Both the position numbers and the translations under genes were made by a program. 64,000 bases of DNA from Geitlerinema sp. BBD 1991-9 (GTDB lineage Bacteria; Cyanobacteriota; Cyanobacteriia; Cyanobacteriales; Geitlerinemataceae). The stretch covers positions 124,001 to 188,000 of the forward strand of contig LWRO01000006.1 in NCBI GenBank assembly GCA_001657325.1, read 5' to 3'. Numbering within the stretch: position 1 is the first letter of the stretch; each line of letters begins with the position of its first letter. Under the pieces are notes generated by a model. The model did no database searches. It was not told the origin of the DNA and was given only the letters and a program-made list of their open reading frames with translations. Below, in pieces: positions 39,868 to 57,500 of this stretch.

Positions 39868-40401
39868 ATGGCAATTGCCGTAAAAATGGCTGGTTTTGAG
39901 CGAGAGAACTATAGAATCTCTCAGTTGACCTTAAAACCAATGGCTCCAATAGAACACGCTCCATTGAGACTGATGCCTCAACTCAGTTGTTGGCTGAACG
40001 AGTCGACGATCTCCCCCGATCGTCAACTCCCCTCACTCTGGCGTTTGACTTTCCCCGTCAACCCATTACAGTTTCGGAAGCAAGCTCGCTTGTGTGCAGA
40101 ATTGAGTAAACAACTCTCGTTCGAGAACGATCGTGAAATTTCCCTATTTTTGGGGATTATGCCCGCCATCGTACCCAACGAAATGGATTTGTGGGTTAGA
40201 ATTTGTTCTCAGAATAGCACTTCATTCCTTCCCAGCAATCTAAAGCTCATGATTCTCGACGCAGATCGAGAGGTGGTCATGCAAGCCACCACTCGCGAAA
40301 CCCACAGACTTCAACTGGAGTTTAGTGGAGAAATTGGTGAAATATTTGGAATTCAATTAGAATTTCAAAACTTTAAATTTTCCGAACAGTTTCAAATCTG
40401 A
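39868..40401 (+). CDS. DUF1822-like protein upstream of a CHAT gene
   Basis: A 177-residue soluble protein. The C-terminal part (LWVRICSQNSTSFLPSNLKL, LMILDADREVVMQ, LQLEFSGEIGEIFGIQLEF) has the pattern I associate with the C-terminus of the cyanobacterial DUF1822 family, genes of which often precede CHAT-domain genes. The middle region of full-length DUF1822 proteins is missing, so this is a short version, or a diverged relative. It has no signal peptide. The CHAT gene starts 37 nt downstream on the same strand. Function is unknown. Confidence 0.6.
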   Translation: MAIAVKMAGFERENYRISQLTLKPMAPIEHAPLRLMPQLSCWLNESTISPDRQLPSLWRLTFPVNPLQFRKQARLCAELSKQLSFENDREISLFLGIMPAIVPNEMDLWVRICSQNSTSFLPSNLKLMILDADREVVMQATTRETHRLQLEFSGEIGEIFGIQLEFQNFKFSEQFQI

Positions 40402-40438
40402 GCTAAGTACTGCCGATCGATTGTCAAGGGGAAGCATC

Positions 40439-42406
40439 ATGATCAAACACGTTGTCCTCAAGATTGAAGGCCATGTCGAACAGCAAGACTGTCGAGTAAC
40501 GCTCGAAATTGGTATCGACAATCAGCGCCCCCATATTGAAAAAATTGCATATTTACCGGCAAACCCCGATCTCGCTCGAGCGATTCAAGAGCATTGGCAA
40601 GATAAATATCGTCAAGCGGGCTCTCCTTGTTCCCGTAAACAGAATTCTCAGTATTCTCGAGATTTAAACTCAATCCGAGGATTGTTAAAATACGGGATTG
40701 ATTATCGAATTAAAGTTAAAAGGATACTTCATGACGGACAAATTAAGCGGCTAAAAGAATGCCAGGAATCGGCCGATGTTGTCGAGAAAAAGTTTCAGGA
40801 ATGGATCGGTTCTCCTAGTTTTCAAGGCTTGGAACTTTGTTTGCGAGAAGAAGTAAGCCAGGAAGACGATATTTATATTACGCTTCGGACGGACGATCGA
40901 GATATTCAAAAGTTACCGTGGCATCTCTGGAAATTTTACCAACGCTATCAGAGATCGGAAATTTCGTTGAGTCCGTTGGTGGCGGCTCGATCGAACGGAA
41001 GTCAGCGAGTACCCTATCCTAAAGTTAGAATTTTAGCAATTCTCGGACACCAAGATGGTATTGATGTTAACAAAGATCGAGAGTTTCTAGAGAATTTACC
41101 GAACGCTGAAGTGACGTTTTTACCAGAACCCAAACGCCAAGAAATCAACGATAAACTTTGGGAACAAGCCTGGGATATTATCTTTTTTGCGGGACACAGC
41201 GAGACGGAAGGAGAAACGGGTAAAATTTACATCAATCCCGATGAAAGTTTAGAAATTAAAGACCTTTGGTATGGGTTAAGGAAAGCGGTCGATCGCGGGC
41301 TGAAGCTGGCGATTTTTAACTCCTGTGATGGTTTGGGTTTGGCGCAAAAAATTGACGATTGGCAAATTCCGATTGCGATTGTAATGCGGGAGTTGGTTCC
41401 CGATCGAGTCGCTCAGGAGTTTTTGAAATTTTTTCTCGATCGATTTGTGCAAGGGGTTCCGTTTCATTTGGCGGTTCGGGAAGCGAGGGAGCAATTGCAG
41501 GGTTTAGAAGGGGAGTTTCCCTGTGCGAGTTGGCTTCCAGTGATTTGTCAACATCCGACGGAATCGCTGTTAAACTGGGAGGATTTTTATCAGGCTGAAG
41601 ATTCGACATCGACATCCGAGAGTGCTTTTTCAAGCGTTGAAAGTGATATTGTTTGTGACGAGAAAAATGAAGGCAAAAAGAAATCCGTGTTACCGCTATG
41701 GAAGCCTTCTTTTTACAATAGGTTGGTTTTATCGATTTTTGCGATCCTGCTCGTAGGATTCAATGAAATTATCAGTCCTAGATTGTCGTTATTTTTTAAC
41801 AAAAAAGGTATTTTTTATGTCAACGAACTTTACCGAAAAAATGATGAGATCGATCGAAGTCTTTATTGGCGAAAAGCTAAATTCTATATCAATCTTGCAT
41901 TTATTCTAGACAGCAAAAATCCAAAAATTAATAACAACCTGGGATATATCTACGAAGACATGACAAACCTTGACAAAGCCAAGTATCTTTACGAACTTGC
42001 TCTGAAGTCAGGAAATTCTTCTAGCTGCAATAGTTTGGGGCGTTTGTCTATTATAGATGGCAGCTATGAACGAGCTGCTAAGATACTTATACATTGTCAC
42101 AATCTCGTCAAAACAGAAGAAAAAAGGTTTCGTGTTTTAAAAAATCAAGGATGGCTTGAATACGAGCGTCAAAATTACCTGCAAGCCATCGATTTTTTGA
42201 CCCGAGCGATAGATATTGCACCTGAAAACTATGAAGGATATTGTTTACTTTCACTGGCACAAGATAAACTCAATAAAACAGATTTAGCGATTCCAAATGC
42301 CTCAAAATGTATTGAGTTTAGTCAAGATAAATATGCTTTGCGATCCGAAGAACAACAATGGCGACAGCAAAATCTAGAAATTTTGGAGAAGACCCAGAAA
42401 AAATGA
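40439..42406 (+). CDS. CHAT-domain protease with membrane helix and C-terminal TPR
   Basis: A 655-residue protein. Residues 1-190 are an unnamed domain common before CHAT. Residues about 200-390 are a caspase-like CHAT domain with the catalytic pair histidine 253 (IIFFAGHSETEG) and cysteine 296 (LAIFNSCDGLGLA). A single membrane segment near 427-445 (RLVLSIFAILLVGFNEIIS) follows, then a TPR region (about 460-650; NLGYIYEDMTNLDKAKYLYE). With no signal peptide, the protease should face the cytoplasm and the TPR the periplasm. ATG 40439 has GGGGAAG ahead of it. From 41.69 kb the gene is clearly more AT-rich. Its stop overlaps the start of the next gene (ATGA). Confidence 0.86.
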   Translation: MIKHVVLKIEGHVEQQDCRVTLEIGIDNQRPHIEKIAYLPANPDLARAIQEHWQDKYRQAGSPCSRKQNSQYSRDLNSIRGLLKYGIDYRIKVKRILHDGQIKRLKECQESADVVEKKFQEWIGSPSFQGLELCLREEVSQEDDIYITLRTDDRDIQKLPWHLWKFYQRYQRSEISLSPLVAARSNGSQRVPYPKVRILAILGHQDGIDVNKDREFLENLPNAEVTFLPEPKRQEINDKLWEQAWDIIFFAGHSETEGETGKIYINPDESLEIKDLWYGLRKAVDRGLKLAIFNSCDGLGLAQKIDDWQIPIAIVMRELVPDRVAQEFLKFFLDRFVQGVPFHLAVREAREQLQGLEGEFPCASWLPVICQHPTESLLNWEDFYQAEDSTSTSESAFSSVESDIVCDEKNEGKKKSVLPLWKPSFYNRLVLSIFAILLVGFNEIISPRLSLFFNKKGIFYVNELYRKNDEIDRSLYWRKAKFYINLAFILDSKNPKINNNLGYIYEDMTNLDKAKYLYELALKSGNSSSCNSLGRLSIIDGSYERAAKILIHCHNLVKTEEKRFRVLKNQGWLEYERQNYLQAIDFLTRAIDIAPENYEGYCLLSLAQDKLNKTDLAIPNASKCIEFSQDKYALRSEEQQWRQQNLEILEKTQKK

Positions 42407-43191
42407 CAATGCAACTGTTTAAACTCTCGTTTTTGCAGCTTTTATCTGCACTGAGCGGATCGATTCTCTTGTTAACATTCAAGCTTCCCTTGCAAATGGG
42501 AACACATCCTCTCATCGCAGCAGAGCTACCTTTAGAGATCGGCAAAATCAACCCACTGACCAAGGAAGAAATACCACCTTGCAACGAGGAAGATGGTTGC
42601 GATCGACCCGTTCTCGATCGATCGATCCCGCATCTCATTTCACCCCGAGCCACTTTGGTAACGGTATCGGCAACAGATAACCTAATCTTGTGGTGGTCTG
42701 CGGTGGAAGTTCCCAACTATACGCCCAACTATACCGTCCGCATTCGAGGACTTGACGGGACGAATTGGGAACGCGACGTTCGAGATACGGTGACAGTTTA
42801 CAACGGAGAGCCGTTACAACCGGGAGGACGATATATTATCAGCGTAGACGCTCACAATGGCGAACAACCGGCCGAGTCGATTTTTCAAGTGATGACGGTT
42901 GAAGAAGAAGCCGAGATCGATCGTCAAATTGCCGAACTCGAAACTGCCAATTTAAGCGAAGTCGATCGACTGTTGGAAACGGCGAAAATTTACCGAGAAG
43001 CTGGAGCGTTTAGCGAAGCGATCGCCGTACTCAAAACCGCCATCGAGTTGTTTCCAGAAACCCCCAAACTCTACTGTGAAATTACGTCGATTTACCAAGA
43101 GCATTACAGCGAACTGATGGCGTTGGACTTTTATCAAGCCTTCGTTCACCGAGGACGTGAATTAGGCGCAACTTGTCCGACTATTCCCTAA
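42403..43191 (+). CDS. Exported Fn3-like/TPR protein, coupled to the CHAT protease
   Basis: A 262-residue protein. Residues 1-38 look like a signal peptide or anchor (FLQLLSALSGSILLLTF). A beta-rich segment (about 80-165; LILWWSAVEVPNYTPNYTVR, LQPGGRYIISVDAHNGEQP) resembles a fibronectin-III/Ig domain. The end is TPR-like (AGAFSEAIAVLKTAIELFPE). Its ATG overlaps the TGA of the CHAT gene, which implies translational coupling. If exported, its TPR could meet the periplasmic TPR of the CHAT protein. I know of no assigned function. Confidence 0.72.
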   Translation: MTMQLFKLSFLQLLSALSGSILLLTFKLPLQMGTHPLIAAELPLEIGKINPLTKEEIPPCNEEDGCDRPVLDRSIPHLISPRATLVTVSATDNLILWWSAVEVPNYTPNYTVRIRGLDGTNWERDVRDTVTVYNGEPLQPGGRYIISVDAHNGEQPAESIFQVMTVEEEAEIDRQIAELETANLSEVDRLLETAKIYREAGAFSEAIAVLKTAIELFPETPKLYCEITSIYQEHYSELMALDFYQAFVHRGRELGATCPTIP

Positions 43192-43220
43192 CGGCGGTAT
43201 CTGTCTCGACCGATTTCAGA

Positions 43221-43247
43221 AACCCGGTATCTCGAAGATACCGGGTT
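43221..43247. terminator. Perfect 12-bp hairpin after the exported Fn3/TPR gene
   Basis: AACCCGGTATCT (43221-43232) pairs with AGATACCGGGTT (43236-43247) around CGA, followed by TCTCG. It is 30 nt past the stop codon. The sequence type recurs as a dispersed repeat in cyanobacteria. Confidence 0.65.
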
Positions 43248-43259
43248 TCTCGTGGGTTT

Positions 43260-43427
43260 CTCCGCCTGTGATACCATTTCTCGATAATCCTGCTAGAGCA
43301 GCGGTACAAAAGTGCTGGGTGCGACGCGAAAATCTCATGAACTGGATTTTAAAGCCATTTTTCGTCCGCGTAACACACCCTACCATTACTCCGCCTGTGA
43401 TACCATTTCTCGATAATCCTGCTAGAG
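43260..43427. repeat. 39-bp perfect direct repeat
   Basis: The sequence beginning CTCCGCCTGTGATACCATTT occurs at 43260-43298 and again at 43389-43427, 129 bp apart, identical over 39 bp. The second copy is followed by the GGGCGAAC inverted repeat. Confidence 0.85.
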
Positions 43428-43506
43428 ATCCTCGGCTGAACTCGGGCGAACACCGTTCGCCCCTACAGACATCTATGGCATGAATTTTTAAAAATGGTAT
43501 GAAATG

Positions 43507-46455
43507 CTATCGCCAATTTCCCACCAACACGAAGGGAGACCAATAATGGGGGTTTTGATAAGCTTCCCCGGCTTCCCCGCGAATTAAAGCAATTTGTGCT
43601 TGTCGCAGGGCTTCCGCTTTGTTAAAGTCGTCGCGATCGCTGAGGGCATTGTAAAAGTATTGCATTAGCTGCGAGGTCGATCGATCGTTGACGTTCCACA
43701 GACTGCCGATAATGCTGCGAACGCCTGCACGAATGGCGATTCCTGCCATTCCTAACACTGCTCGATCGCTCTCTTGTGCTGTTTGACAAGCACTTAATAC
43801 CACTAAGTCGAGATCGTTGCGTCCGCTGGGATCGTCAACTTGTAAAATGTCGGCGAGTTCGGTCGATCGAAGCAATCGATCGACTACGATAAAGGTACTT
43901 TCGGCAAAGTTGCTAAACCGTCCGTGAGTTGCAATGTGTAAGATTGGATACTTGAGGGAATGGACACCCCGCTGCAAATTTTCGACGGTAAATGTTTCTT
44001 CAAAAAGCTGTTGCGTATCGGCGACTTCTTGAATTCCATTGAGTTCGTCGTCAATATATTTTAAGTTACTGAGTTGCGTTCCGGGTGCGATGCGAGTATC
44101 GTCGAGAACTAGGCTGTTAAAGTTTTGTCGCCCTGCGGCTAAAACGCGAATTTTGGGAGTTTCGAGACGTTTGGGAGCGAGGAGTTGTAAACTCGGCGCA
44201 ACAGCGATCGCGTACTTTTCAATTAAGTATCGTTCGCCGTCATAAAGGACAGACATGGGAACCGATCGCAATTGTCCATCTAAGACAAAGACGATTTGCG
44301 ACACCTCAGCGGCTTGTAAGTCTGTTTCGAGAGGTGCAATGATTTTTTGATAGGCTTGCTGTGCGAGAGATTTTAACTCAGATTTTTCTTTTAAAGAAAT
44401 CTCAAGAAATTCAAACGTCAGTCCGATCTCTCCAAACTCTCGGTAACGATAAAATCGATCGCCGCCAAAGTTTGCGATAATTTCTAGACGATCGAAAAAC
44501 AAAATTGCGTAAACTGTCGCGGTGTCAGAATCGATTTCAGTTAAATCGACGGGTTGAGTTTCTAAACAAGCGATTCCAAAAAAATCGTTGATTTCAGCAA
44601 TTTGTAACGCTTGAATTGTCTGGGCTGCGATTTGTAAAGCTTCTTGGGAAACTGCCTCGGGACGCAGCAACAAATCGGCGTATTCTCGATAGACGGGTTC
44701 GACGCGATCGCGGAAAGAAAAACGCGAGTCTGGATCGAGGGTGTTTAAATCTAATTGAATTATTGTTAGGATATCAAGTGCTTTTTTATAATAATTGAGG
44801 GTATTAAAATATATCGGTTCTAATTCTAAATTGATTGGATTCTGTTCTTTTGAAAAATAGCCCATTCTCCAATAAAGTCGATATAAAATCTCTCGTGTAT
44901 TGGCACGTTCAGCCCGTTCGATCGCCTGTAAAGTGATGAGTTTTGCCCTATCGAAATTTCGATCCTGTAAGGTGTAGAGACTCGCAAAGGCTTCTAAAAC
45001 GTAAGCTTGCGATCGATCGTCTCCTAACTGTTGCGCTTCCTCTTTCGCAAGGTTTAACTGGTTTTCGACTTCCACCAGCGAGAACCCTGGAACCGCAGGC
45101 GGTTCGGTGTCAGAAAGGCGATCGCAGTTTAACGCCAAACACGCAAACTTGACACGAGCCTCAACGGTGAAGCGACTGGGGGGAAGGGCTGTCAGTTGAG
45201 TTTGAATCGATCGAACCCGAGTTTCAATATCGTTCGGGTGGATTTCCTCTCGGGTTAAATCCCGAATTAACGCCAAAGCGTTCAGGTTCGATCGCAATTG
45301 CAAGGCAGGAGACGCGGTGCGAACCTCGGCGGCACGATGGTAATATTGAAGCGCCCGGTCAAACGCGATGTCTTCGTCTTGTTGAATGTTGAGTTCCCGA
45401 GCGCGACGGGCGGCGGAGGCTTCCGTATTCCCCAAATCGAGGGAGACACGAGCGATCGACTCCTCAGACGCGATCGTTTCAGCCATCTCCAAACTGCGTT
45501 TTAACACGATACGCGATCGATCGAATTCTCCGATCGATCTCAACCCATTCGCCAACCCCTGCAACACCGCCACAGAAACCGCCGGATTTTCCCGAATATC
45601 GATCGATCGCTGTATCTCTACAACATCCTCCATCGCCAAACCCTGACACTGCTCACTGCTCACTGCTCGCTGCTCACTGTAAAGTGGCGCATCCAACACC
45701 TGCAACACCGTATCGCAAGCTCGTCGCGCAAAGCCCATCCCCTGCAACGCTTGCGCCTGATTCAACAATCCCCCCGTCACCCCTTCCTCGTCAGAAAGGC
45801 GGCGGTAAATCTGCGTTGCATCGCGCCAACTGTCGTAAGCCAACTCCATTTCCCCGAGGGCGAATTGCAACTGACCCCGCGTGTTGAGAATGGCGGCGAA
45901 AATGCGTTGCGTACTTTCATCACGCCTTGCGTCGGGAACGCCGATGAGTTCGAGGCTAAGATCGATCGCCGTTCTCGCCGCCTCCCAATTTCCGAGTTTT
46001 TGATGCGTCAAACTGAGATAATTATGCGCCAATCCTCGAATCGATCGATGGATTTCACCATCGTTTAACAGCGGTTCGAGAACCGACAATGCCGCCTCGT
46101 AGTCGTTATTAATATAGTGCGATCGCCATCGATCGAATTGAGAATCGATCGTCTGTTGTTGCACGGTTCGCGGATTACCCATGCCCTCATCCCCCAACCC
46201 CTTCTCCCAATATTGGGAGAAGGGGAGAAAATCCATCCCCCCTACCCCCCTTTCAAAGGGGGGTAGGGGGGATGGATTTAGGGAGAGGGCTGCATCATGG
46301 GGATGCACTCCAGGCGATCGCGAACTCGCCACTTGTGGAACCATCACCGTAAACGCCGCGATCGCAATCCCCAAAACAACCCAACGCCACAATATTTTTA
46401 CAACACTTAAAACAGCAACGACTCGATCGAAAAATACAACCCCTCTTCTTGCCAC
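43507..46455 (-). CDS. TPR-CHAT domain protein
   Basis: A 982-residue protein. A hydrophobic N-terminal segment (WVVLGIAIAAFTVMVPQVAS) is probably a signal or anchor. A linker made of palindromic repeat DNA follows, then a long TPR region (about 80-560; IRGLAHNYLSLTHQKLGNWE). The C-terminal CHAT domain has histidine in YPILHIATHGRFSN and cysteine in LVVLSACQTAQES, and ends WSPFVLVGNW. GTG 46455 is chosen because GAGGGG precedes it; TTG 46497 and TTG 46392 are alternatives. It overlaps the 3' end of the upstream secretion gene by 49 nt, which suggests coupled translation. It may act outside the cytoplasm. Confidence 0.85.
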   Translation of the reverse strand: MARRGVVFFDRVVAVLSVVKILWRWVVLGIAIAAFTVMVPQVASSRSPGVHPHDAALSLNPSPLPPFERGVGGMDFLPFSQYWEKGLGDEGMGNPRTVQQQTIDSQFDRWRSHYINNDYEAALSVLEPLLNDGEIHRSIRGLAHNYLSLTHQKLGNWEAARTAIDLSLELIGVPDARRDESTQRIFAAILNTRGQLQFALGEMELAYDSWRDATQIYRRLSDEEGVTGGLLNQAQALQGMGFARRACDTVLQVLDAPLYSEQRAVSSEQCQGLAMEDVVEIQRSIDIRENPAVSVAVLQGLANGLRSIGEFDRSRIVLKRSLEMAETIASEESIARVSLDLGNTEASAARRARELNIQQDEDIAFDRALQYYHRAAEVRTASPALQLRSNLNALALIRDLTREEIHPNDIETRVRSIQTQLTALPPSRFTVEARVKFACLALNCDRLSDTEPPAVPGFSLVEVENQLNLAKEEAQQLGDDRSQAYVLEAFASLYTLQDRNFDRAKLITLQAIERAERANTREILYRLYWRMGYFSKEQNPINLELEPIYFNTLNYYKKALDILTIIQLDLNTLDPDSRFSFRDRVEPVYREYADLLLRPEAVSQEALQIAAQTIQALQIAEINDFFGIACLETQPVDLTEIDSDTATVYAILFFDRLEIIANFGGDRFYRYREFGEIGLTFEFLEISLKEKSELKSLAQQAYQKIIAPLETDLQAAEVSQIVFVLDGQLRSVPMSVLYDGERYLIEKYAIAVAPSLQLLAPKRLETPKIRVLAAGRQNFNSLVLDDTRIAPGTQLSNLKYIDDELNGIQEVADTQQLFEETFTVENLQRGVHSLKYPILHIATHGRFSNFAESTFIVVDRLLRSTELADILQVDDPSGRNDLDLVVLSACQTAQESDRAVLGMAGIAIRAGVRSIIGSLWNVNDRSTSQLMQYFYNALSDRDDFNKAEALRQAQIALIRGEAGEAYQNPHYWSPFVLVGNWR
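45647..45679. repeat. Heptamer repeat inside the TPR-CHAT gene
   Basis: Units of CACTGCT repeat four to five times in frame, coding on the minus strand for part of YSEQRAVSSEQCQG. This is the reverse complement of the AGCAGTG repeat upstream of obgE. Confidence 0.8.
46183..46289. repeat. Nested palindromes within the TPR-CHAT gene
   Basis: Two perfect palindromic elements are embedded in coding sequence: 46198-46225 (28 bp, centre AATATT) and 46231-46277 (arms of 23 bp, 1-nt loop). Outer arms GCCCTC (46183) and GAGGGC (46284) enclose both. On the minus strand they encode LNPSPLPPFERGVGGMDFLP and FSQYWEKGLGDEG with no stop codon. Confidence 0.85.
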
Positions 46456-49400
46456 GAATCCCCTCGATCCTCCAAATCCATAAAAGGAATACCCCAATCT
46501 ACCGCAAGACGCAAGCGATCGCCCAAACGAAATCGTAACCCCAACCCCGCCGAAACCAACGCATTTCGTTCGGGATCGTTGCGATCGTCGCTATTCCAAA
46601 CCACCCCCGCATCGACAAACGGAACGATATCCAATTGACCGTTCCACTGCGGAATTTGCAACACCGGAACGCGCAATTCCACCGATCCTAAAATGCCATT
46701 GTCCGCCAACAGTGCATCTTGGCGATAGCCTCGGGCGGTGGAGCGTCCCCCCAAACTAATTTGCTCGAAGGGAACCAGCGCATCTGGGGTTAGCTGTACG
46801 TCGCCGCGAACCACCAACAGGGAATTTCCGACGTTTTCCAAACGACGCACCCACTGCGTTTGTCCCCGCCACGCGAAAAACTGACTGTCCGGTTCGTTGT
46901 CGTTCGTCGTCGCATCGAACCAGTTCACCCCCAAATTAAACTCCGATCGAACCGCAAAAACATAATCGTTCCCTTGTCGCGTCCAATCTTGAAAAAAACG
47001 CAAAACTGAAATCTTTGTTTCCCCATCGTCCTCTGCACCGGGAGACAGGGGAAAATCAAAACCGAGAATTGACGTTTGACTTTCCCGACGGGAGGCGGTG
47101 AAACCGATGGCGAATTCCTCAAAGCGATTCCGCTGACTCCCCACCCCTGGAACTTCCACCACCCGCAGCAGCGGTTGACGAACCGTTAACTCGTACTGGC
47201 GAGAATCCGCTTCGATGTCTAAAGAACGAAAGGGCGATTCCACCACTTCGTTCGCCCCCGTGTCGTAGCCGAAACGCAAGGTTCCCCCAGAACGGTTGAA
47301 AGGGACGGTGTAGCTAACTCCCCATTCGTCGCTTCCGTCGGTGTGGGCGTAGCTGACGCGGGCGGTGTCGCCGAATCCGAGTAAGCTGTTGAATTGCAGG
47401 CGAGCTTGTTGGCGGAAGGTTCCCACGCTTGGGGAGCGGTTGTTGTCGAGGCGGATGTCGGCGGTGATGGGGGAGGCGGCTTCGACGTTGAGGCTGAGGC
47501 GGTTGGTTTCCGGGCGCACTCCGGCGGACAGTTCGGCGGCGACGGTGACGATTCGATCGTCGAGTTGCAGGAGTTGCAGGGTTTGCAGGAGTTGGGTTTG
47601 GTTGACGAGATCGCCGGTTTCGACTCCCAAGCGGGAACGGACGTAACTGGGGTTGAGTCGTCCGCGAACGGATACGTCGATGTCTTCAAATTTCGATTCG
47701 GAGGCTTGCAGAACGAGGGTTCCATCGCGGCTGGTTTGGGGCGGAACGTACACGCCGGAGGTGATGTAGCCTCGTTCTCGGTAGTGTTGGCTGAGTTCGT
47801 CTGCGGCTTGTTGGACTTCGGCGAAACTGAGGGGGCGATTTCGGTATTTGTCGAGGATTCGATCGATCTCTTCGGGTTCTAAAACCGTACTCCCTTGCAG
47901 TGTTAAATCGGAAATCGTCACGGTGTCGGGGACAGTTCCCGGTTCGAGGTGGTCGAGATTGGAATTATCGAGATTGGATTTCTGGGTGTTGGGTTCGCAG
48001 GAGCCTGGTTGTTGGAAACGATCGTTCGCGTTTTGCGGAGCGGGTAACAGTTGGAGATCGCCGTTTTCGTTAATTATCCAGCTTTGGGCTTCGATGAGGC
48101 GTTCTACGGGTTCTTGGGTGACGGGTTCGTCCGTTGCATCGTCGGTGTTTTCGTCGAGGGGAATTGCACGAATATCTTCCCAAGGTTGGCTTCCCGTCAA
48201 CGGATCGTTGGGTGTGGGGGGTAAGCCGCCCCGTCCCGTTTGGACGAACTCGCTGTCTCCGCCGCCGATTTGACAGGGATTTCGATCGAGCGGTGCAGCG
48301 GCGAAACGATCTTCGAGTTCAACGAGTCCTTGCGTGGGATCGACATCGGGAGCGACAATTTCGACGGTTCCGTTGAGTGCGGGGTCAGTCAGAGAAATGG
48401 CGGTAATGAGGTTTCGATCGTCGGTCGTGGGGTCGAAATTCAGTAGGTTTTCTTCGCCAATTTCCGCAACCAGTTCTTCTCGGCTGAGGGGTTCTAATCC
48501 TAAAACGATATCGTCGGCGGTAATGTCGATCGCACCGCCGCGTCCGTTGAAGGCGTTCGCTGCAATGTTGCTGTTTTCTAATCCGACGAGGGTATTTGTA
48601 TTGATGGTGATGTTCCCTCCCGTTCCCGCTCGATCTGGTTGTCCCGAAGTGGTGGAGATTTGAGCGTTTTCGAGGAGGCGAACGTCGTCGGCGTTGACGA
48701 ATAAATTGCCCCCTTGGCCGAAAGCGGCTTCGGCGGTGAGTGCTCCGCCGTTTTCGATGCGGAGATCCTCGGCGTTGAGGGTGACGTTTCCGGCGAGTGG
48801 GCTTCCGACATCGGCATTGACGCTAATCTGGGCGAGATTTGCAATGGTTAGAAAAGGGGTATTAATGGTGACGTTGCCCGCTTCACCGGGATCGATTTCT
48901 TCGGGAAAACGTCGTTCCCGAACCGCTCGAGCAGTGATGCGACTGGGAAGCAAACCATCCTCGTCGATGATGGGATTGAATGGGGCATTAGAGGGCAGAG
49001 AGACGGGATCGTTCGATCGACCGCTCACCTGTACTGACTCAGAAGCCGTTACCGTAACGCGGCCACCATTTCCCGCCGCAAAGGTATCGGCAGAAATTGC
49101 TGCCCCATCGCGAACCGTCAAGCGTCCCGTCGAAATGTTTAAATTGCCGCCATTCCCCGCCATGTCAGGCTGAATTCGGCCTTGAGATTGAACGACAATA
49201 CTGGTGGGCGAGTTGTAGTCAGGAGAAGTTCCCACGAGATCGATCGACTCGTGAGCCGTAACCGTTACGTTGCCGCCATCCCCCGTGCCAAAGGCGATCG
49301 CCTGAATTTGTCCACCGCTATCGAGGGCGAGTCGATCGACGTTCACATTAATATCTCCCCCCGGTTGTGCGCCCCGAGTTGAGGCAACGATCGAAGCGCG

Positions 49401-50912
49401 ATCGCTCACCCGTAACTCGCTTGCTTCGATCGTCAAATCCCCTGGCGCTCCAAGGTTTGCCGGTTCAACTTGACGAGATGGAACCGCTCCCACATCGAGA
49501 CGAGTCTCTTGAAAATTCTGTTCAATTCCTCGAACTTCTACCAAATCCGCCGCGATCGAAATATTTCCACCGTCTCCATACCCCATTGTCATCGCGCCGA
49601 CAATACCGCCATCGCACACTAACAACTCTCGGGTTTCGATAACGATATTTCCCGCGTTCCCCGTTGCTTGAAACTCGATCGTTTCCAGAGGCTGCACTTG
49701 CGAGAGAATACTGCTTCGTCGAGTCCCATCGATCGAGATACCAATGCCATCGACGAGAACCGTATCGGCGGAAATTCTCAGATCGCCACCGTTACCGGAG
49801 GCTGCGGTTCCTGTCGAAATCTGCGCCCCGTTGCGAATCGAAAGGTCGATCGTATCGATGAAAAGATTGCCCGCATTTCCACTCCCCTGTGTTTGCGAAA
49901 ACAATCCAGCGGACTCCAACAGCGGAAGTTCGCCAGATTCCGAACCGTTTTCAGAACCCGGTTGTACGTCTCCTGTCAGATCGATCGTTGCAGCCGAGAT
50001 TACAAACGTCCCACCATCTGCATCGAAAGTACTGCTTGTAATCCCAGAGTCAGAGATGAATAGCTGACCCGATCGAATTTGGATATCGCCACTTCCCATT
50101 TCCGGGTTGCTGTCTGATGCGTGCAAACCGCTGGCATCAACCACAGAATTTTCAGACAAACGAATGGTTCCAAATTGGTCTATCCCGTCGTAACCCAAAC
50201 GATAACCGTTAGAAACGGCATTCAAACTCACCGTTCCCGAACCCGCCACGCTCCCGAGTTCAATACGTCCGCCGAAATTTGTCGCGTTACCCCCTTCAAA
50301 TAGGAGATCGCCGCCAGCAAAAATCAAGCTGTTGTTCGAGTTCACGGTTAACCCAGTGGGTAAATTAATGCTATTTAGACCCTCTACAGAAGCTTGAGAG
50401 GTATTGGTAATCGAACCGGGGGTTTCGCCAAACTGCAAACCCAGGGGAGCGGAGACAGACAGCAGCGGCGAAGGTTGACGAGCATCGAACTCGCTCCCGT
50501 CGGCGAATTGTATGCTGTCGGCGGTGGTAGCGACGAACGAACCTCCGATTTTCAGTTGAGCGTTTCGCCCGAAAATAATGCCGTTGGGATTGAGGAAAAA
50601 CAGACTCGCTCCCTGAGTTTCTAAAATTCCCTCAATTCGCGAAATATTGTTTCCCGTGATGCGGCTAAAAATCGTTTCGATTCCCGCGTCATTTTCAAAC
50701 AACGCGGTCGCGTTTTCGGGAATTGAGAACTCCTCGAAACTGTGAAATAGGTTATTTCCCGCAGCCGTTCCCCCCTGAATGCGGAAGGTTTCGCCTTCCA
50801 AAGTGACGGTGGAGTTTTCTAGGAGGGTGGCATCGGGGACGATTTGCGCCGTGACGGGTGTGGCGATCGAAAAGATTGCTAGAGCGAGGGTAGATGGGGA
50901 TAGGGAAGACAT
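46407..50912 (-). CDS. Fused two-partner secretion protein: FHA-type passenger plus POTRA/FhaC barrel
   Basis: A 1501-residue outer-membrane protein. A signal peptide (LALAIFSIATPVTAQ) leads to a TPS domain of filamentous-hemagglutinin type (about 25-170; FFLNPNGIIFGRNAQLKIGG near 107). A beta-helix of repeats follows to about 860 (AGNVTINTPFLTIANLAQIS). After a disordered stretch come two POTRA-like domains (from about 998, DLTLQGSTVLEPEEIDRILD; then DIDVSVRGRLNPSYVRSRLG) and an FhaC/ShlB-type barrel (about 1150-1501), with the loop GGRSTARGYRQD. Normally passenger and transporter are separate genes. ATG 50912 is preferred over TTG 50939. The CHAT gene overlaps its 3' end. Confidence 0.88.
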   Translation of the reverse strand: MSSLSPSTLALAIFSIATPVTAQIVPDATLLENSTVTLEGETFRIQGGTAAGNNLFHSFEEFSIPENATALFENDAGIETIFSRITGNNISRIEGILETQGASLFFLNPNGIIFGRNAQLKIGGSFVATTADSIQFADGSEFDARQPSPLLSVSAPLGLQFGETPGSITNTSQASVEGLNSINLPTGLTVNSNNSLIFAGGDLLFEGGNATNFGGRIELGSVAGSGTVSLNAVSNGYRLGYDGIDQFGTIRLSENSVVDASGLHASDSNPEMGSGDIQIRSGQLFISDSGITSSTFDADGGTFVISAATIDLTGDVQPGSENGSESGELPLLESAGLFSQTQGSGNAGNLFIDTIDLSIRNGAQISTGTAASGNGGDLRISADTVLVDGIGISIDGTRRSSILSQVQPLETIEFQATGNAGNIVIETRELLVCDGGIVGAMTMGYGDGGNISIAADLVEVRGIEQNFQETRLDVGAVPSRQVEPANLGAPGDLTIEASELRVSDRASIVASTRGAQPGGDINVNVDRLALDSGGQIQAIAFGTGDGGNVTVTAHESIDLVGTSPDYNSPTSIVVQSQGRIQPDMAGNGGNLNISTGRLTVRDGAAISADTFAAGNGGRVTVTASESVQVSGRSNDPVSLPSNAPFNPIIDEDGLLPSRITARAVRERRFPEEIDPGEAGNVTINTPFLTIANLAQISVNADVGSPLAGNVTLNAEDLRIENGGALTAEAAFGQGGNLFVNADDVRLLENAQISTTSGQPDRAGTGGNITINTNTLVGLENSNIAANAFNGRGGAIDITADDIVLGLEPLSREELVAEIGEENLLNFDPTTDDRNLITAISLTDPALNGTVEIVAPDVDPTQGLVELEDRFAAAPLDRNPCQIGGGDSEFVQTGRGGLPPTPNDPLTGSQPWEDIRAIPLDENTDDATDEPVTQEPVERLIEAQSWIINENGDLQLLPAPQNANDRFQQPGSCEPNTQKSNLDNSNLDHLEPGTVPDTVTISDLTLQGSTVLEPEEIDRILDKYRNRPLSFAEVQQAADELSQHYRERGYITSGVYVPPQTSRDGTLVLQASESKFEDIDVSVRGRLNPSYVRSRLGVETGDLVNQTQLLQTLQLLQLDDRIVTVAAELSAGVRPETNRLSLNVEAASPITADIRLDNNRSPSVGTFRQQARLQFNSLLGFGDTARVSYAHTDGSDEWGVSYTVPFNRSGGTLRFGYDTGANEVVESPFRSLDIEADSRQYELTVRQPLLRVVEVPGVGSQRNRFEEFAIGFTASRRESQTSILGFDFPLSPGAEDDGETKISVLRFFQDWTRQGNDYVFAVRSEFNLGVNWFDATTNDNEPDSQFFAWRGQTQWVRRLENVGNSLLVVRGDVQLTPDALVPFEQISLGGRSTARGYRQDALLADNGILGSVELRVPVLQIPQWNGQLDIVPFVDAGVVWNSDDRNDPERNALVSAGLGLRFRLGDRLRLAVDWGIPFMDLEDRGDSWQEEGLYFSIESLLF

Positions 50913-51092
50913 CGAAGACAAGGAGGACGAGGGAAACAAGGTAATACCATTTTAAATAATTAATGCAATAGATAAGCGTAGGGGCAAGTCTCTGTGCTTG
51001 CCCAATTTCAACAACGGGTAACTGTTCGCCGTAAAAGCTGTTTAGAACAGTATTGATTTGGAGGTTAACAACCCGATCGCCGTATTGTTTTT

Positions 51093-51326
51093 TTACAAAT
51101 AAAGAATGACTCGATCGGGGAATTTCCCCTCTCCCACTTTTTTGCCATCGACAAATATTTCAGCATTACCTGTGCTGCTGTGACCAACACGAGCGACACC
51201 ATCGGCATCGGTGTTAACGGGTTGACTCATCCCTCCTAAAAGTCCAGCAAATCCCAACCGGACTCGACAACCTCTTTTTCGTTTTTGGTTTTTGTAAACG
51301 ATAATTTTGCTAATGTGTTTACCCAT
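51093..51326 (-). CDS. Small Ig-like/carboxypeptidase-regulatory-like protein
   Basis: A 77-residue protein: basic start MGKHISKIIVYKNQKRKRGC, then a beta-sandwich-like repeat (VNTDADGVARVGHSSTGNAE, IFVDGKKVGEGKFPDRVILY). The NTDADGVARV pattern recalls the transthyretin-like fold that decorates surface proteins. It has no signal peptide. ATG 51326 has a strong AAGGAG site 7 nt upstream, which supports a real gene. Similar short proteins occur in cyanobacteria, but none has a known role. It lies between the fused secretion gene and the giant subtilase, same strand. Confidence 0.72.
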   Translation of the reverse strand: MGKHISKIIVYKNQKRKRGCRVRLGFAGLLGGMSQPVNTDADGVARVGHSSTGNAEIFVDGKKVGEGKFPDRVILYL

Positions 51327-51568: not shown

Positions 51569-54500
51569 TTATCCCAAAGAACCGACACCCGCGACGATAT
51601 CGTTATCGCACTCAGGCGCAAGGGTGTAAACATAATCTCCATCCGGCAAGAGATCGCGATCGAACTTCAATACCATCGTATTCGAGCCAGTTGCGCCGAA
51701 TTGACCAAAGTTCAACCCGAACAGATTAGCATTATTCAACACTTCAACATCGCCAATTTTGGTTCCCGAAACCATGCTGTTGGGAACGTGGTGACTGAGA
51801 TTAAAGTAAGGATCGGTCGCACTCAAATCCGCCGAAGTGGGAGTTCCACCATGTTGGGTTATCCAATTGATATAACCCGAAAGACTGGCATCCCACAACG
51901 CCATCCCATTTTCCACTGCAATGTCAGTTGCTCGGACGTTGCGGTAAACGCCAAGTTCGCTAACTCCTGAGTCACTCAGTTCAGCAAACCGGATACCAAA
52001 TAACTCTCCGTTTGCACTGGCTGTATCGAGATTGTTACCCGAGAAATTGAATAGCAAATCGCCCCAACCCACGTGTCCGTCAGTAGCATACGCGCTGCTG
52101 ACTCCCGATAAGGGTAAATTCGAGTTGATAGCCAGGTAAATGCTGTCACTCGTTTCTTTCAAAGCAGTGCCGTAAATTTCATAGTGGGTTCCGCCTACGT
52201 CGTAGCCAGCCATACTATCGTTGAAGCTGTCGATGGAATACTGCCAATCTTTATTGACATAGGGCAGACTTCCCGAATCGTTGGGAATTTCGATGATTCC
52301 TTGACGTGGCGACCAACCTGGGAGTTCAGAAATGTATAGATCGCTCCAAAAATCGTTATCTCTGAAGTGTGTGAAATCTTCTCCTTCAAACACGCCATTT
52401 TTCACGTTGTTTGGTTCTCCAGTTCGAGCCAGCCAGTTGGTGTAAGAAACAGCCTCTCCACCGACCCACTGGAAGTCTCCTTCTCGGGCGTTATAAATCG
52501 GGCTGTCCGTGAAACCAATCCAAGCATCGATGGTTCCAAACGTATCGATAAGCCACTGATTTTCCGCCTCGTTTTCAATGGTGACTAAACGACCGCCGAG
52601 AGCTTCCGCGTGTTCTTGTGCGCCGAGCCAAGTATCGAATTGGCTGAGAACATAGCGGTTTCCGGTGTTGGGGTTGGTGTAAACGGGAGGATTAAAGGGG
52701 GTGGCGCTGTCGTCGATGGTAATTTGACCGATCGCTTGACTGGCCAAGGTATAATCACCGGGCTGAATTTCCACGATCGCCGTCTCAGGACTTTCAACTC
52801 GACCGTCAAAAATGCCGTGAATCGGAACCGTGATGAGTTTTTCACCCGCCGGAATCGTCACTTGATTCGGTAACGCCTCGTAATCTGCCCCAGGCGTGGC
52901 ACTTCCCGACACCGTTAAATCGAGCGTTAAATCTTGACTGAGATCGTCAAATCGTTGAATGACAATCTGTCCGGCGTTGCCATTCTCCCCAGCTTTCGCA
53001 TCTGTCACCATCATCGTGACGATGGGATTATCTAACTGGTTGGGATCGATTTCAGCAATGCCGTGGAGAATATGAGAACCTGGGCGATCGTTCCATTTCC
53101 CTTGGTTGGGGAAATTACCCATATCTTGGTGAAGATGTACTGAATCTTCTTCGCCCAAGTTGTTGGGTTCGCTGGGATGCCAGTTGGTGTAGGTGACAGG
53201 CTCTCCATTGACCCAGATAAACTCACCGCTAGAGCCGCCATACACAGGATTATCTGTGAAACCTATCCAGAGAATTTCGTTGGCACCAAAAGTATCAATG
53301 AGCCAATCCTGTTCGGCTTGGTCGTTGATGGTAACGAGATTACCGCCTAACGCCTCAGCTTGTGCTTGTGCGCCGTACCAAGTATCGCGTTCGGTGACAA
53401 TGTAGAGATTGCCCGTATCGGGATTTTCATAGATAAAAGAGCCGTAACGGGAAATCGTGGAACTGTCGGCGATCGTGGCAGTTCCGTTAATATCGCTACC
53501 TAAGATATAGTCGCTGCCACTCGTCAAAGTAATTTCGACCGTTTCATCACCTTCACCGAGCAAATCGTAATTGGGAACTACAGAAATCGTCGCGCCTTTT
53601 TGTCCCGGTTCTAAGGTAACGCTCCCCGCAAGCGGTTGATAGTCGCTGTCGCGGTTCGCGGTTCCACCGATTTGATAGTTCACCACCAGAGTTTCATCGA
53701 GGTTTTCCTCGCGGGTGACGGCGAAAACGGCTGCGTCACCATCTTCACTTGCTTCAGTATCGAGGACTTCAAGGTTAACCGTGGTCGCTGCTTCTAGTAA
53801 CAGAGTTTGTCCTAAGCTAGTCCGACCGAGTGCGTCAGTGACGGCTGTATTAATGATGAAATCGCCAGTATAGCCGTCACTCGGCGTGTACTGAACGTCA
53901 TCGAGAACGGCATTCACGGCTTCAACCGAACCCGTCACGCGGAATACACCGTCACTAAACTCGACGCTGGCACTATTGCTCGTATTGCTGCTCAGAATTC
54001 CCGCGTCTTTATCAGACAAACTCAAGATCGCCGTCATGGGATTTCCAGCAGGCGCACTGGCATGAACGTCATTGATATCCAGAGACGTACCCGGCGTATA
54101 GATTTGCTTCCAGTCGTATTTGCGAATGACAACATCCATCGAGCCGCTATAGGGTTGCCCATCTACCGAGCTGTGGGAGCGACCTAACGTATACAGCGAG
54201 TTGTTTGTCAATAGAATGTTGTCCATGGCATCCCAAGCGGGATAGGCCAGTTTTTCCGTCCAGTCAATTCGCTGTCCTTGAGGATCGAAGGCGGTGACTA
54301 AGCCATCAAAACTGCTTCCAGTCGTTTCAGATTGCGTCCCCGAGAGTAAAACATTGCCAAAGTCATCGATTTGTACGTCGCCGTAGGTTCCATAGTCGTA
54401 CTCAGAGGTTCCGAACTGTCGAGTCCATAGCAGTTCGCCATCTGAGTCGTATTTGGCAGCGAAAATATCGCCTTCCCCGAACTGAGTTTGTCCTGGGAAC

Positions 54501-57500
54501 GCGCCCCAAGTTACCCCATGAACGGCAATGTTTCCGTGGCGATCGATATCGATTCCATGAATGGCATCCTGGTCTGACGTTCCGAGTTGAAGTGTGCGAA
54601 CGATATTGCCATCGGTATCGATGCTGGCAACAAATCCATCGAGATAACCCTCATGGTTTTGACCCGGAAAAGCACCATAAATCCATCCCGCCATTTCCAA
54701 ACGATTTTCAGTGGCATTAAATCCCACATCCATCGGCACATGACTGGGTAGATCGATCTGTTTTGCCCAAATTTGATTGCCGCTCGTATCCCATTTGATA
54801 ACGATGGAATCATAGCCGTTTGAATTAGCGGAAGTACTATCGAACAATTCTCCCGCCGTATAGCCGACCGTATAAAGATTGCCGTCGTTGTCGGTGACAA
54901 CACCATCTAAAGCATCTTCTTGGGGGGTTCCCAATTGATGAGACCAAATGAGATTTCCGTCAGTATCGTATTTCGCAAAGAAGGCATCTCGCCCGCCTTG
55001 ATGAGCGCCAGCCAGCGAACTAAACGTACTTCCCGTAACGTACAGGTTGCCGTCTTTGCCAATGTCGATTTGGTTAAAGCGATCGCCTTCCGTACCTCCT
55101 AACAACTCTGTCCAAACTAAATTGCCTTTCGCATCGAATTTGCTGATGAAAGCATCGCCATGACCGTTTTCATAGTTGTTTCCGGCATTGGTGTTGTTGT
55201 GTAAATCTCCGAGGGTAAAGCCAACAATATAGCTATTGCCTTCTGCATCGACGGCGATATCTAGCGCTGAATCCCAGGATGGAGTGCCAATTTCTGTTGT
55301 CCAATGTTTAGTGGGTTCGACAAAAAGACTGGGAGGATCTGGCAATTCTGGTTCCGTTCCGTACAGGTTCAGTTTCCAACCCTTCCACTCTCCGCTGATG
55401 TCGTTTCCTTTCTCATCGAGAACCTGTAACGTCCACTCACCCTCAGAGGATTCACCCCAGAAACGAGGAGTGCTAAACGTCCAATATCCTTTTCGGAAGG
55501 GATCTTCGGGCGCTAAGTGCGGAATTTCAACATCGCTGATGTCCAGGTCGGGAATGCTGTGACGGAGAACGGTTTCGGTACCGTCGGGAGAGGTGAGGAT
55601 AACGCTGAGGTCGTTCCAGTCTTCGTGAGCGAAATCGGCAACCACTTCAACCCATTCGAGGGTGATGTCGGATTCGACTTCTACGCTGTCGCTCAAACCC
55701 ACCGTTCCGCCGTTGGGAAGGTCGTCGTTAACGTTGCGGAATTTCGTTTCAACACGGATTTCGGGGGTTACGGTCGTCCATTCGGCGGCCAGTTCGACGG
55801 CGGCTTTCGGGTTCACCGCGCCAAACCCGTATTGATAGTTAATGTCGTACCCTGCGCCGTTCGTCGTCCAACCGGATTCGGTACGGTTGTAGTCGGGATC
55901 GACTTCGTCGGGATGATGGTCGGGATCGACTTTATAGGACGTTTCAGCCAGGATGTGCTGGATGTCGCGGTTCGAGAGATGGGGGTTGACTTCCCGCATT
56001 AAAGCAACAACCCCAGAAACAAAGGGAGCGGCGGCGGAAGTGCCTCCGAAACCGCTTTTACCAGCGGGATAACCTACATAAGTATCTCGGCCGCGGTGGT
56101 TGATGTTAACCCCAGTGGTGACAATGTCAGTTCCGTTTGGGTTCCCCTCTAAGCCGTTGTTGGAGTAGGCGGAAACAAACGCGCCGGGATTGCTGTAGGG
56201 AGCGCGAACGATTTCGATTTCTCCCGCTTCACCTTTGAATGTAACGGCTCCGACTGCAATGGAGTGGCGACTGTTCGTTAGGGCGTAGTTGTTGACTTGA
56301 GCGTAGCCTAAGCCGCTACCGATGTCGCGACTGCGATCGTTCCCGGCGGAAAAGATGTAACTGTTCCCCAAACCGTCGAGTCCGTATTTTGCTCCAGATT
56401 CTAGGGCTGCGGTGGCTAGGGGTTGATGGACAAAGGGAAAAGCCCCCCAACTGTTATTGAAAATGTCGATTTCTGCGTTGCGTCGATCGTCGTATAAGGT
56501 CTGGGCAATTGTTGAACCGTAAATGTCGTAGTCGTAGTCGATCGCGTCGATGTTACCGATCAGCCGCAAGGCTGCAATGTCGGCGTTGGCTGCGATACCC
56601 CGCGTTCCCTTGTCTCCATCTTCGTCGGCGACAATACCCGCGACGGCTGTACCGTGGGGGTTAATCGTCGTGATTTCGATGGAAAACGAGCCGAGTTTCT
56701 CGACGACAGATTTCCAGGTTTCGGGAATTGGACCGTAGGTATCGTTGTAAAAATGAAGCTTCCAAGTGCCACCCGCAAAGCTACGATCGAATCCATCCGC
56801 CAATATTAGGGATAATTCTCCGGGGTTGTTTTCTTGGATAAAGTCACTGGCGGCAAAGTTTAAGTCATTCCAACCGGGGAAATACCAGGAGTAATTTCGC
56901 AGGCTAAACCAGTCACCGGGTATGTCGATCGAGTCTTCTGGAGAAACGAGTTCGATCGCGATATCTTGGAGTGCTTTGAGTTCGCTTGGGGTCAGAGAGG
57001 TATTCTCGAAATGAACGTCAACATCCACCACAACCCCAGTCAGCGTCACGGGAATGTCAAAGGTAAAGCTGTCTTTCGAGAAATCGTCGATTTTGAGATC
57101 GACATTAAAACTCTCGATCGATTGCGGAAAAGGATCGTCGTCGCCGTCGGTGTAGTCGTAACTTAAATCGGGACGATAGCGACCTCCGGTTTCGGGGTTG
57201 AATTCGATGTGGTCGTATTTCAAGCCGTCATCGACGATCGCCACGACAACGCCTTCACCGGAGAGGAATTCGCCAGTTGGATAGCGAAGGGCTGGATGCT
57301 CCCAAACGCCGATAATGTTGGAGTTGGGGTCGCTCGGATCGATGGGTTGATGCAGCGACCATTGCTCGTCTTCAAGATAATCAGGATCGCGTCCCAATAA
57401 ACGCAGGGGAATCGGAACGTCGGGATAGGCGACTTCGACGGTTGGCGTATTGACGATCGATGCAGTAATCTCTGCTGCACTCAATCCGTCGTCGAAATCC

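Follow-up and report, generated by a model that had tools for sequence, protein, structure and literature searches.

Gene content of the locus

The window analyzed here, a stretch of 64,000 nucleotides of Geitlerinema sp. BBD 1991-9 (contig LWRO01000006.1, positions 124,001 to 188,000), carries five adjoining genes, A to E, at 39868-50939 (Table 1). All of them lie where the initial annotation had placed them, and open reading frames together with Pfam matches confirmed the presence of its DUF1822-like, membrane CHAT-TPR, putatively exported Fn3/TPR, converging TPR-CHAT and fused secretion genes. A small 'Ig-like' protein (51093-51326, 77 aa), which had been counted as a further neighbor in the module, has neither a Pfam match nor a homologue among the 58 other genomes searched and is therefore an orphan rather than a member. 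Next to the module, a gene at 51569-59782 (minus strand) encodes a protein of 2737 aa with matches to subtilase, P-domain, C-type lectin, Calx-beta, DUF4114 and beta-propeller repeat models.

Table 1. Genes of the locus and the block exchanged relative to the sister genus (positions in the window).
Feature	Position	Strand	Description
A, short DUF1822 protein	39868..40401	+	177 aa; PF08852 model positions 282-370 of 370
B, membrane receptor protease	40439..42406	+	Pfam CHAT and TPR, one TM helix
C, predicted exported beta-sandwich and TPR protein	42403..43191	+	signal-peptide-like start, weak fn3/TPR matches
D, predicted exported TPR-CHAT protein	43507..46497	-	Pfam CHAT; start probably TTG 46392
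E, TpsA-TpsB fusion	46407..50939	-	Pfam TPS, POTRA_2 and ShlB in one ORF
Exchange block, unrelated to sister-genus locus L262	41557..45529	.	blastn, sliding identity, discordant trees

The product of gene A matches DUF1822 (PF08852) with 45 bits (cut-off 25), and the match is confined to the C-terminal half of the family, an Ig-like beta-sandwich. Upstream of A, an NADH dehydrogenase-like gene lies in the place of the sigma gene, and no ECF sigma gene adjoins the system either at the window locus or at L262, the syntenic locus of the sister genus; an ECF-like sigma gene is present at the paralogous locus L083 in the window's own genome. That A might be a fresh pseudogene was rejected, since its short form is also conserved at L262 (64.5% identity over 155 aa).

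A model of a full-length DUF1822 relative (L181, 9053-9961; pLDDT 91) combines an alpha/beta part at the N-terminus with an Ig-like beta-sandwich at the C-terminus, which suggests that DUF1822 is not a TPR protein, contrary to its earlier description (PMC8195603). While a sigma gene adjoins 81 of the 102 full-length DUF1822 loci, none of the five truly short DUF1822 proteins (<200 aa), a post hoc and exploratory subset, has a sigma neighbor; the contrast holds for these five, and the HMM-defined 'short' class mixes in long divergent proteins. This exploratory result fits the idea that the N-terminal part missing in A handles the sigma factor. An assignment of DUF1822 by fold as an anti-sigma or Csx30-like protein was rejected, the best Z score (7.6) lying within noise and the well-covered part being only the common Ig-like sandwich. 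DUF1822 has no sequence matches in the PDB, and no anti-sigma or Csx30 relatives were detectable by fold and PDB sequence searches, in which mostly the sandwich was compared.

Protein B begins with a separase-type CHAT protease (aa 1-385), composed of EACC2 and a caspase half, followed by a linker, a TM helix (429-447) and a TPR ectodomain. Its match to CHAT (PF12770; 30.6 bits, cut-off 24) places it among the CHAT peptidases, and protein D matches the same model with 201.6 bits. The dyad of B, His253/Cys296, is invariant, the catalytic His and Cys being kept in all 102 receptors of the family, and the family of D retains them in 53/54 and 54/54 members, respectively. The initial annotation had made its proposal dependent on intact His/Cys pairs, and both B and D possess them. 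In the AlphaFold model of B, the CHAT and TPR parts reach a pLDDT of about 90, with low values for the linkers and the TM region. Structure comparison aligned residues 3-381 of this model with the whole protease domain of human separase (Z 22.2, 299 residues, 3.3 A) and with Csx29 (Z 19.8). The modeled fold points to EACC2 being the first half of a separase-type protease, not a module in its own right. The alignment of B with CHASE2-type members of the family starts at residue 1, and the C-termini differ. Hydropathy and a weak positive-inside charge bias around the TM helix favor a cytoplasmic protease half and a periplasmic TPR part. PADLOC returned no family matches for B.

The start of C overlaps the end of B by ATGA, as initially annotated, and resembles a signal peptide, from which export is predicted. 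The fn3 (E 8e-5) and TPR (E 6e-6) matches of C are both below the Pfam cut-offs, and relatives of C adjoin TM-TPR receptors in other genomes. C holds the position that is occupied by DUF928 in CHASE2-type loci. It has no Pfam match to DUF928 (PF06051); profile-profile comparison yielded a probability of 56% (E 1.2e-4) over 131 columns spanning sandwich and TPR, which is suggestive only of a common sandwich-plus-TPR layout of the two protein types. A FecR-like N-terminal domain suspected by eye in longer Fn3/TPR relatives was dismissed for lack of a Pfam match.

A normal signal peptide of D begins at TTG 46392, 14 nt past the stop of E, and this codon is probably the true start; relatives of D likewise begin with signal peptides. 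The adjacency of the TPR-CHAT gene and the fused secretion gene stands as initially annotated. Their 91-nt overlap exists only if the first TTG is the start of D, and is uncertain because TTG 46392 begins such a typical signal peptide. Tight coupling or overlap of D/E-type genes is seen in other genomes. PADLOC returned only weak BovA-like matches for D. After the signal peptide, at 46172-46282, D contains an in-frame palindromic dispersed repeat (45 blast matches, many genome copies) that codes for an extra linker, which is absent from D of the sister genus.

All three domains of two-partner secretion (type Vb) are present in the single ORF of E, namely the TPS domain (201 bits) and the POTRA_2 (72 bits) and ShlB (107 bits) domains of the transporter, and the chain runs from the TPS domain through a repeat passenger and POTRA to the ShlB barrel. 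Five more TpsA-TpsB fusions occur in related loci. Against about 50 TPS-domain matches, the window's genome has only four ShlB-type transporters including the fused E, so that most passengers would have to share transporters. Nine single ORFs were found to join an N-terminal TPS domain to a C-terminal CHAT domain, four of them in the window's genome (L085, 11923-18018; L164; L166; L167) and the others at L080, L202, L221, L224 and L237. The catalytic His position is Gln in the ORF at L085.

Conservation of the gene neighborhood

The B family was found in 81 of the 292 cyanobacterial genomes sampled. About 100 neighborhoods from whole genomes and 80 from named contigs, two sets that partly overlap because some contigs are identical, were annotated with profiles that had the window and its relatives as seeds, and were compared. 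The consensus order is ECF-like sigma gene (with weak but consistent matches to ECF models), DUF1822, EACC2-CHAT receptor and exported partner, often facing TPR-CHAT and then TpsB/TpsA. Within 8 kb of the EACC2-CHAT genes from whole genomes (n = 100), DUF1822 was present in 68 cases, sigma in 58, DUF928 in 45, TPR-CHAT in 38 and a TPS domain in 22; the corresponding numbers for the named contigs (n = 83 receptors) were 58, 57, 62, 35 and 26. The initial annotation had staked its proposal on the neighborhood recurring in other genomes, and this is what the comparison found. At L131, L217, L219, L220, L224 and other loci, a longer sigma-like type (about 400 aa, with a clear Sigma70 region 4) replaces the short sigma upstream of DUF1822-CHAT.

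CHAT and TPS genes might be so numerous that they often coincide by chance, given 26 CHAT and about 50 TPS-domain matches in the window's genome. Co-localization was compared with circular shifts in three single-contig genomes, where DUF928 lay with CHASE2 in 10/14 cases (0.5 expected), TPS with TPR-CHAT in 7/17 (1.0 expected) and the receptor with TPR-CHAT in 4/13 (0.6 expected). In these genomes, TPR-CHAT, DUF928, CHASE2 and TPS genes lie together more often than the shifts predict (p 0.02 to 0.00005). As gene order and orientation also recur across orders, and receptor and partner are strictly paired (see below), we regard chance proximity as very improbable.

Pairing of receptor and exported partner

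The receptors are of two forms. Those with CHASE2 are followed by an exported DUF928 protein, and those with TM-TPR, as in the window, by an exported Fn3/TPR protein. Across the whole set of loci, CHASE2 was paired with DUF928 in 101:0 and TM-TPR with Fn3/TPR in 19:0 cases, neither partner type adjoining a further 71 receptors. When mapped on a tree built from the CHAT part only, the receptor form changed about 7 times, and so did the partner. All four independent pairs on well-supported branches were concordant; a sign test on these four alone gives p 0.125 and cannot reach 0.05. In the window's genome, DUF928 is also found beside CHASE2 proteins with nucleotide cyclase, GGDEF, histidine kinase or SpoIIE phosphatase output, and there the gene order is reversed. 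Since DUF928 adjoins CHASE2 proteins of other output in the opposite order, the pairing does not reflect linkage or operon layout only.

Block exchange relative to a sister-genus locus

A family search identified L262 (genome G292), a syntenic locus in the sister genus that is 71-79% identical to the window at the DNA level outside a block of 3,973 bp (Table 1). blastn similarity to L262 ends at 41556 and restarts at 45530, and the block covers the sensor of B, the whole of C and the C-terminal two thirds of D including its CHAT domain. The CHAT core of B is 93-98% identical between the two loci, and E is 72% identical over 1,526 aa. Inside the block of L262, B continues into CHASE2 and DUF928 takes the place of C, and for the C-terminal two thirds of D no DNA similarity to L262 was detectable.

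Trees of the individual parts are discordant. L262 and the window lie together inside the Fn3/TPR clade in the trees of the CHAT part of B (0.974/0.967) and of the N-terminus of D (0.903/0.929). In the tree of the CHAT part of D, L262 groups with the DUF928-type loci L181 and L149 (0.99) and the window falls into the Fn3/TPR clade (0.985), and an AU test rejected the grouping of window and L262 for this part (p 0.012). For the short N-terminal part of D, whose identity is 80% to L262 and about one half to the others, the test of a placement with L181 was not significant (p 0.064), and the support for window plus L262 was 45/38. The inner pieces of L262 (receptor C-terminus, DUF928, middle of D and CHAT of D) all have their best match in L181; the sister genome is therefore the likely recipient of the block, and the window likely keeps the older state. 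Both hybrid genes of L262 are open and in frame and lie on a 4-Mb contig.

At the sequence level, this natural hybrid shows that the predicted sensing parts form a block that can be replaced as a unit, with the remainder of the locus left in place. The exchanged segments are contiguous, so that one recombination moves all of them, whether they interact or not, and the argument for function therefore relies on the independent pairing data. The initial suggestion that an exported TPR protein is read through the membrane CHAT protease gains from these comparisons, the strict pairing and the joint exchange in the sister genome both being consistent with such a reading. The exchange divided D, whose N-terminal TPR part remained with E and whose CHAT part went with the sensor, a division that would fit D acting as a bridge. 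Its link to the partner type is not strict, because in the Fn3/TPR loci L079 and L100 the CHAT part of D lies outside the Fn3/TPR clade.

A second CHAT protease that processes the secreted passenger had also been suggested initially. The exported protease D would then cleave or release the TPS passenger of E, and B and C would form a separate signaling unit that happens to adjoin. In many loci, D lies beside E or TpsB/TpsA and is coupled to them, both D and its relatives bear predicted signal peptides, and the nine TPS-CHAT ORFs, including the four of the window's own genome, combine the two domains in one chain. However, the CHAT half of D at L262 was exchanged together with receptor and partner while E was kept, relatives of the window family at L091-L093 and L264-L267 have D beside B and C with no adjacent TPS gene, and the fused CHAT domain of L085 carries the Gln substitution. 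Passenger processing is thus less well supported than a reading through the membrane protease, and we consider it unlikely.

Discussion

The core of the system, an EACC2-caspase with an ECF sigma factor and DUF1822, has been described computationally (Kaur et al., eLife 2021; PMC8195603). B has the constant EACC2 and caspase module and the variable membrane C-terminus of these proteins, with a DUF1822 gene upstream, and an ECF-like sigma gene is found in complete relatives and at the paralogue L083. The window locus differs in that it has no sigma gene and a DUF1822 gene cut to its C-terminal domain. As a sigma gene was reported to adjoin the 'majority' of EACC2-caspase neighborhoods (PMC8195603), it is not obligatory for such a system. 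DUF928 or TPS partners are not mentioned in the text of that paper.

EACC2 systems in general have been proposed to be suicide effectors, and the protease of the window could accordingly cause programmed death upon envelope attack or phage infection, the sensor exchange being part of an arms race. The domain was defined among predicted conflict systems (PMC8195603), the sensor cassette is polymorphic, and CHAT proteases act in Craspase and SAVED-CHAT, which were among the structure-comparison matches. Against this stand the PADLOC results (no family match for B, weak BovA-like matches only for D), the NADH dehydrogenase-like genes that adjoin the locus and the nature of its companions, which are parts of secretion and second-messenger signaling. 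A role in conflict or cell death therefore appears improbable to us.

Craspase, in which Csx29 (TPR-CHAT) acts with Csx30 and RpoE, is a precedent for a CHAT-controlled sigma factor (PMC9729208). The likeness to gRAMP/Craspase drawn in the initial annotation holds for the CHAT fold of B and for the set of sigma, partner and CHAT genes in complete relatives, and it fails at the window itself, where the sigma gene is missing. B also differs in being membrane-bound and linked to envelope proteins, whereas Craspase works with an RNA-guided effector. D scores 12.8 bits against the Csx29 equivalog (NCBIfam NF041237; cut-off 300), among whose matches B is not listed. A TpsA-TpsB fusion is known from Trichodesmium (Tery_3487; PMC3297439) and has the same succession of TPS domain, passenger, POTRA and ShlB-type barrel in one chain as E, which differs in being coupled to a TPR-CHAT gene and in facing a receptor operon. 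One cyanobacterial CHASE2-DUF928 cluster has been noted in passing (PMC5587647); it likewise has an exported partner beside a membrane receptor in a like position, and in the window TM-TPR and Fn3/TPR replace both together. Our search of the open-access literature turned up no description of the neighborhood as a whole, its exported partners, its TPR-CHAT/TPS association, the strict pairing or the block exchange. To the extent of that literature, the exported, TPR-CHAT and TPS parts, the receptor/partner pairing and the block exchange would be new, and the sigma/DUF1822/EACC2 core is already known.

From the gene content, the intact dyads, the predicted fold of B, the export signals, the conservation, the strict pairing and the block exchange, we infer a trans-envelope proteolytic relay in which an exchangeable sensor controls a cytoplasmic separase-type protease, and with it the in vivo topology, the sensing complex, the activation of the protease and its substrate. 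We give this reading about an even chance of being correct. E would display or secrete its TPS passenger at the outer membrane, and C, D and the TPR ectodomain of B would form a periplasmic sensing unit that reports on the envelope or on E. The state of this unit would switch the CHAT protease of B. By analogy to Csx29-Csx30-RpoE, its target in complete relatives would likely be DUF1822 and/or the upstream ECF-like sigma factor, and activation of B would then change transcription, as in Craspase. Having no sigma gene and no more of DUF1822 than the C-terminal domain, the window copy would probably act on A alone or on sigma and DUF1822 products of sister cassettes elsewhere in the genome. In a more specific and tentative version, which may well not hold, the relay has one CHAT protein on either side of the inner membrane: the exported CHAT protein D together with C is a plug-in sensor for B, and B cuts DUF1822 and frees an ECF-type sigma factor; block recombination would then change the input and leave output and passenger untouched.

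CHAT proteases are plentiful in multicellular cyanobacteria, and we know of few with an established input or target. The natural hybrid locus and the conserved pairing yield testable predictions of binding partners, and they open to study a separase-like protease of bacteria whose membrane sensor is defined. If the proposed sigma/DUF1822 step is true, Craspase would exemplify a more general bacterial scheme in which CHAT proteins control sigma factors.
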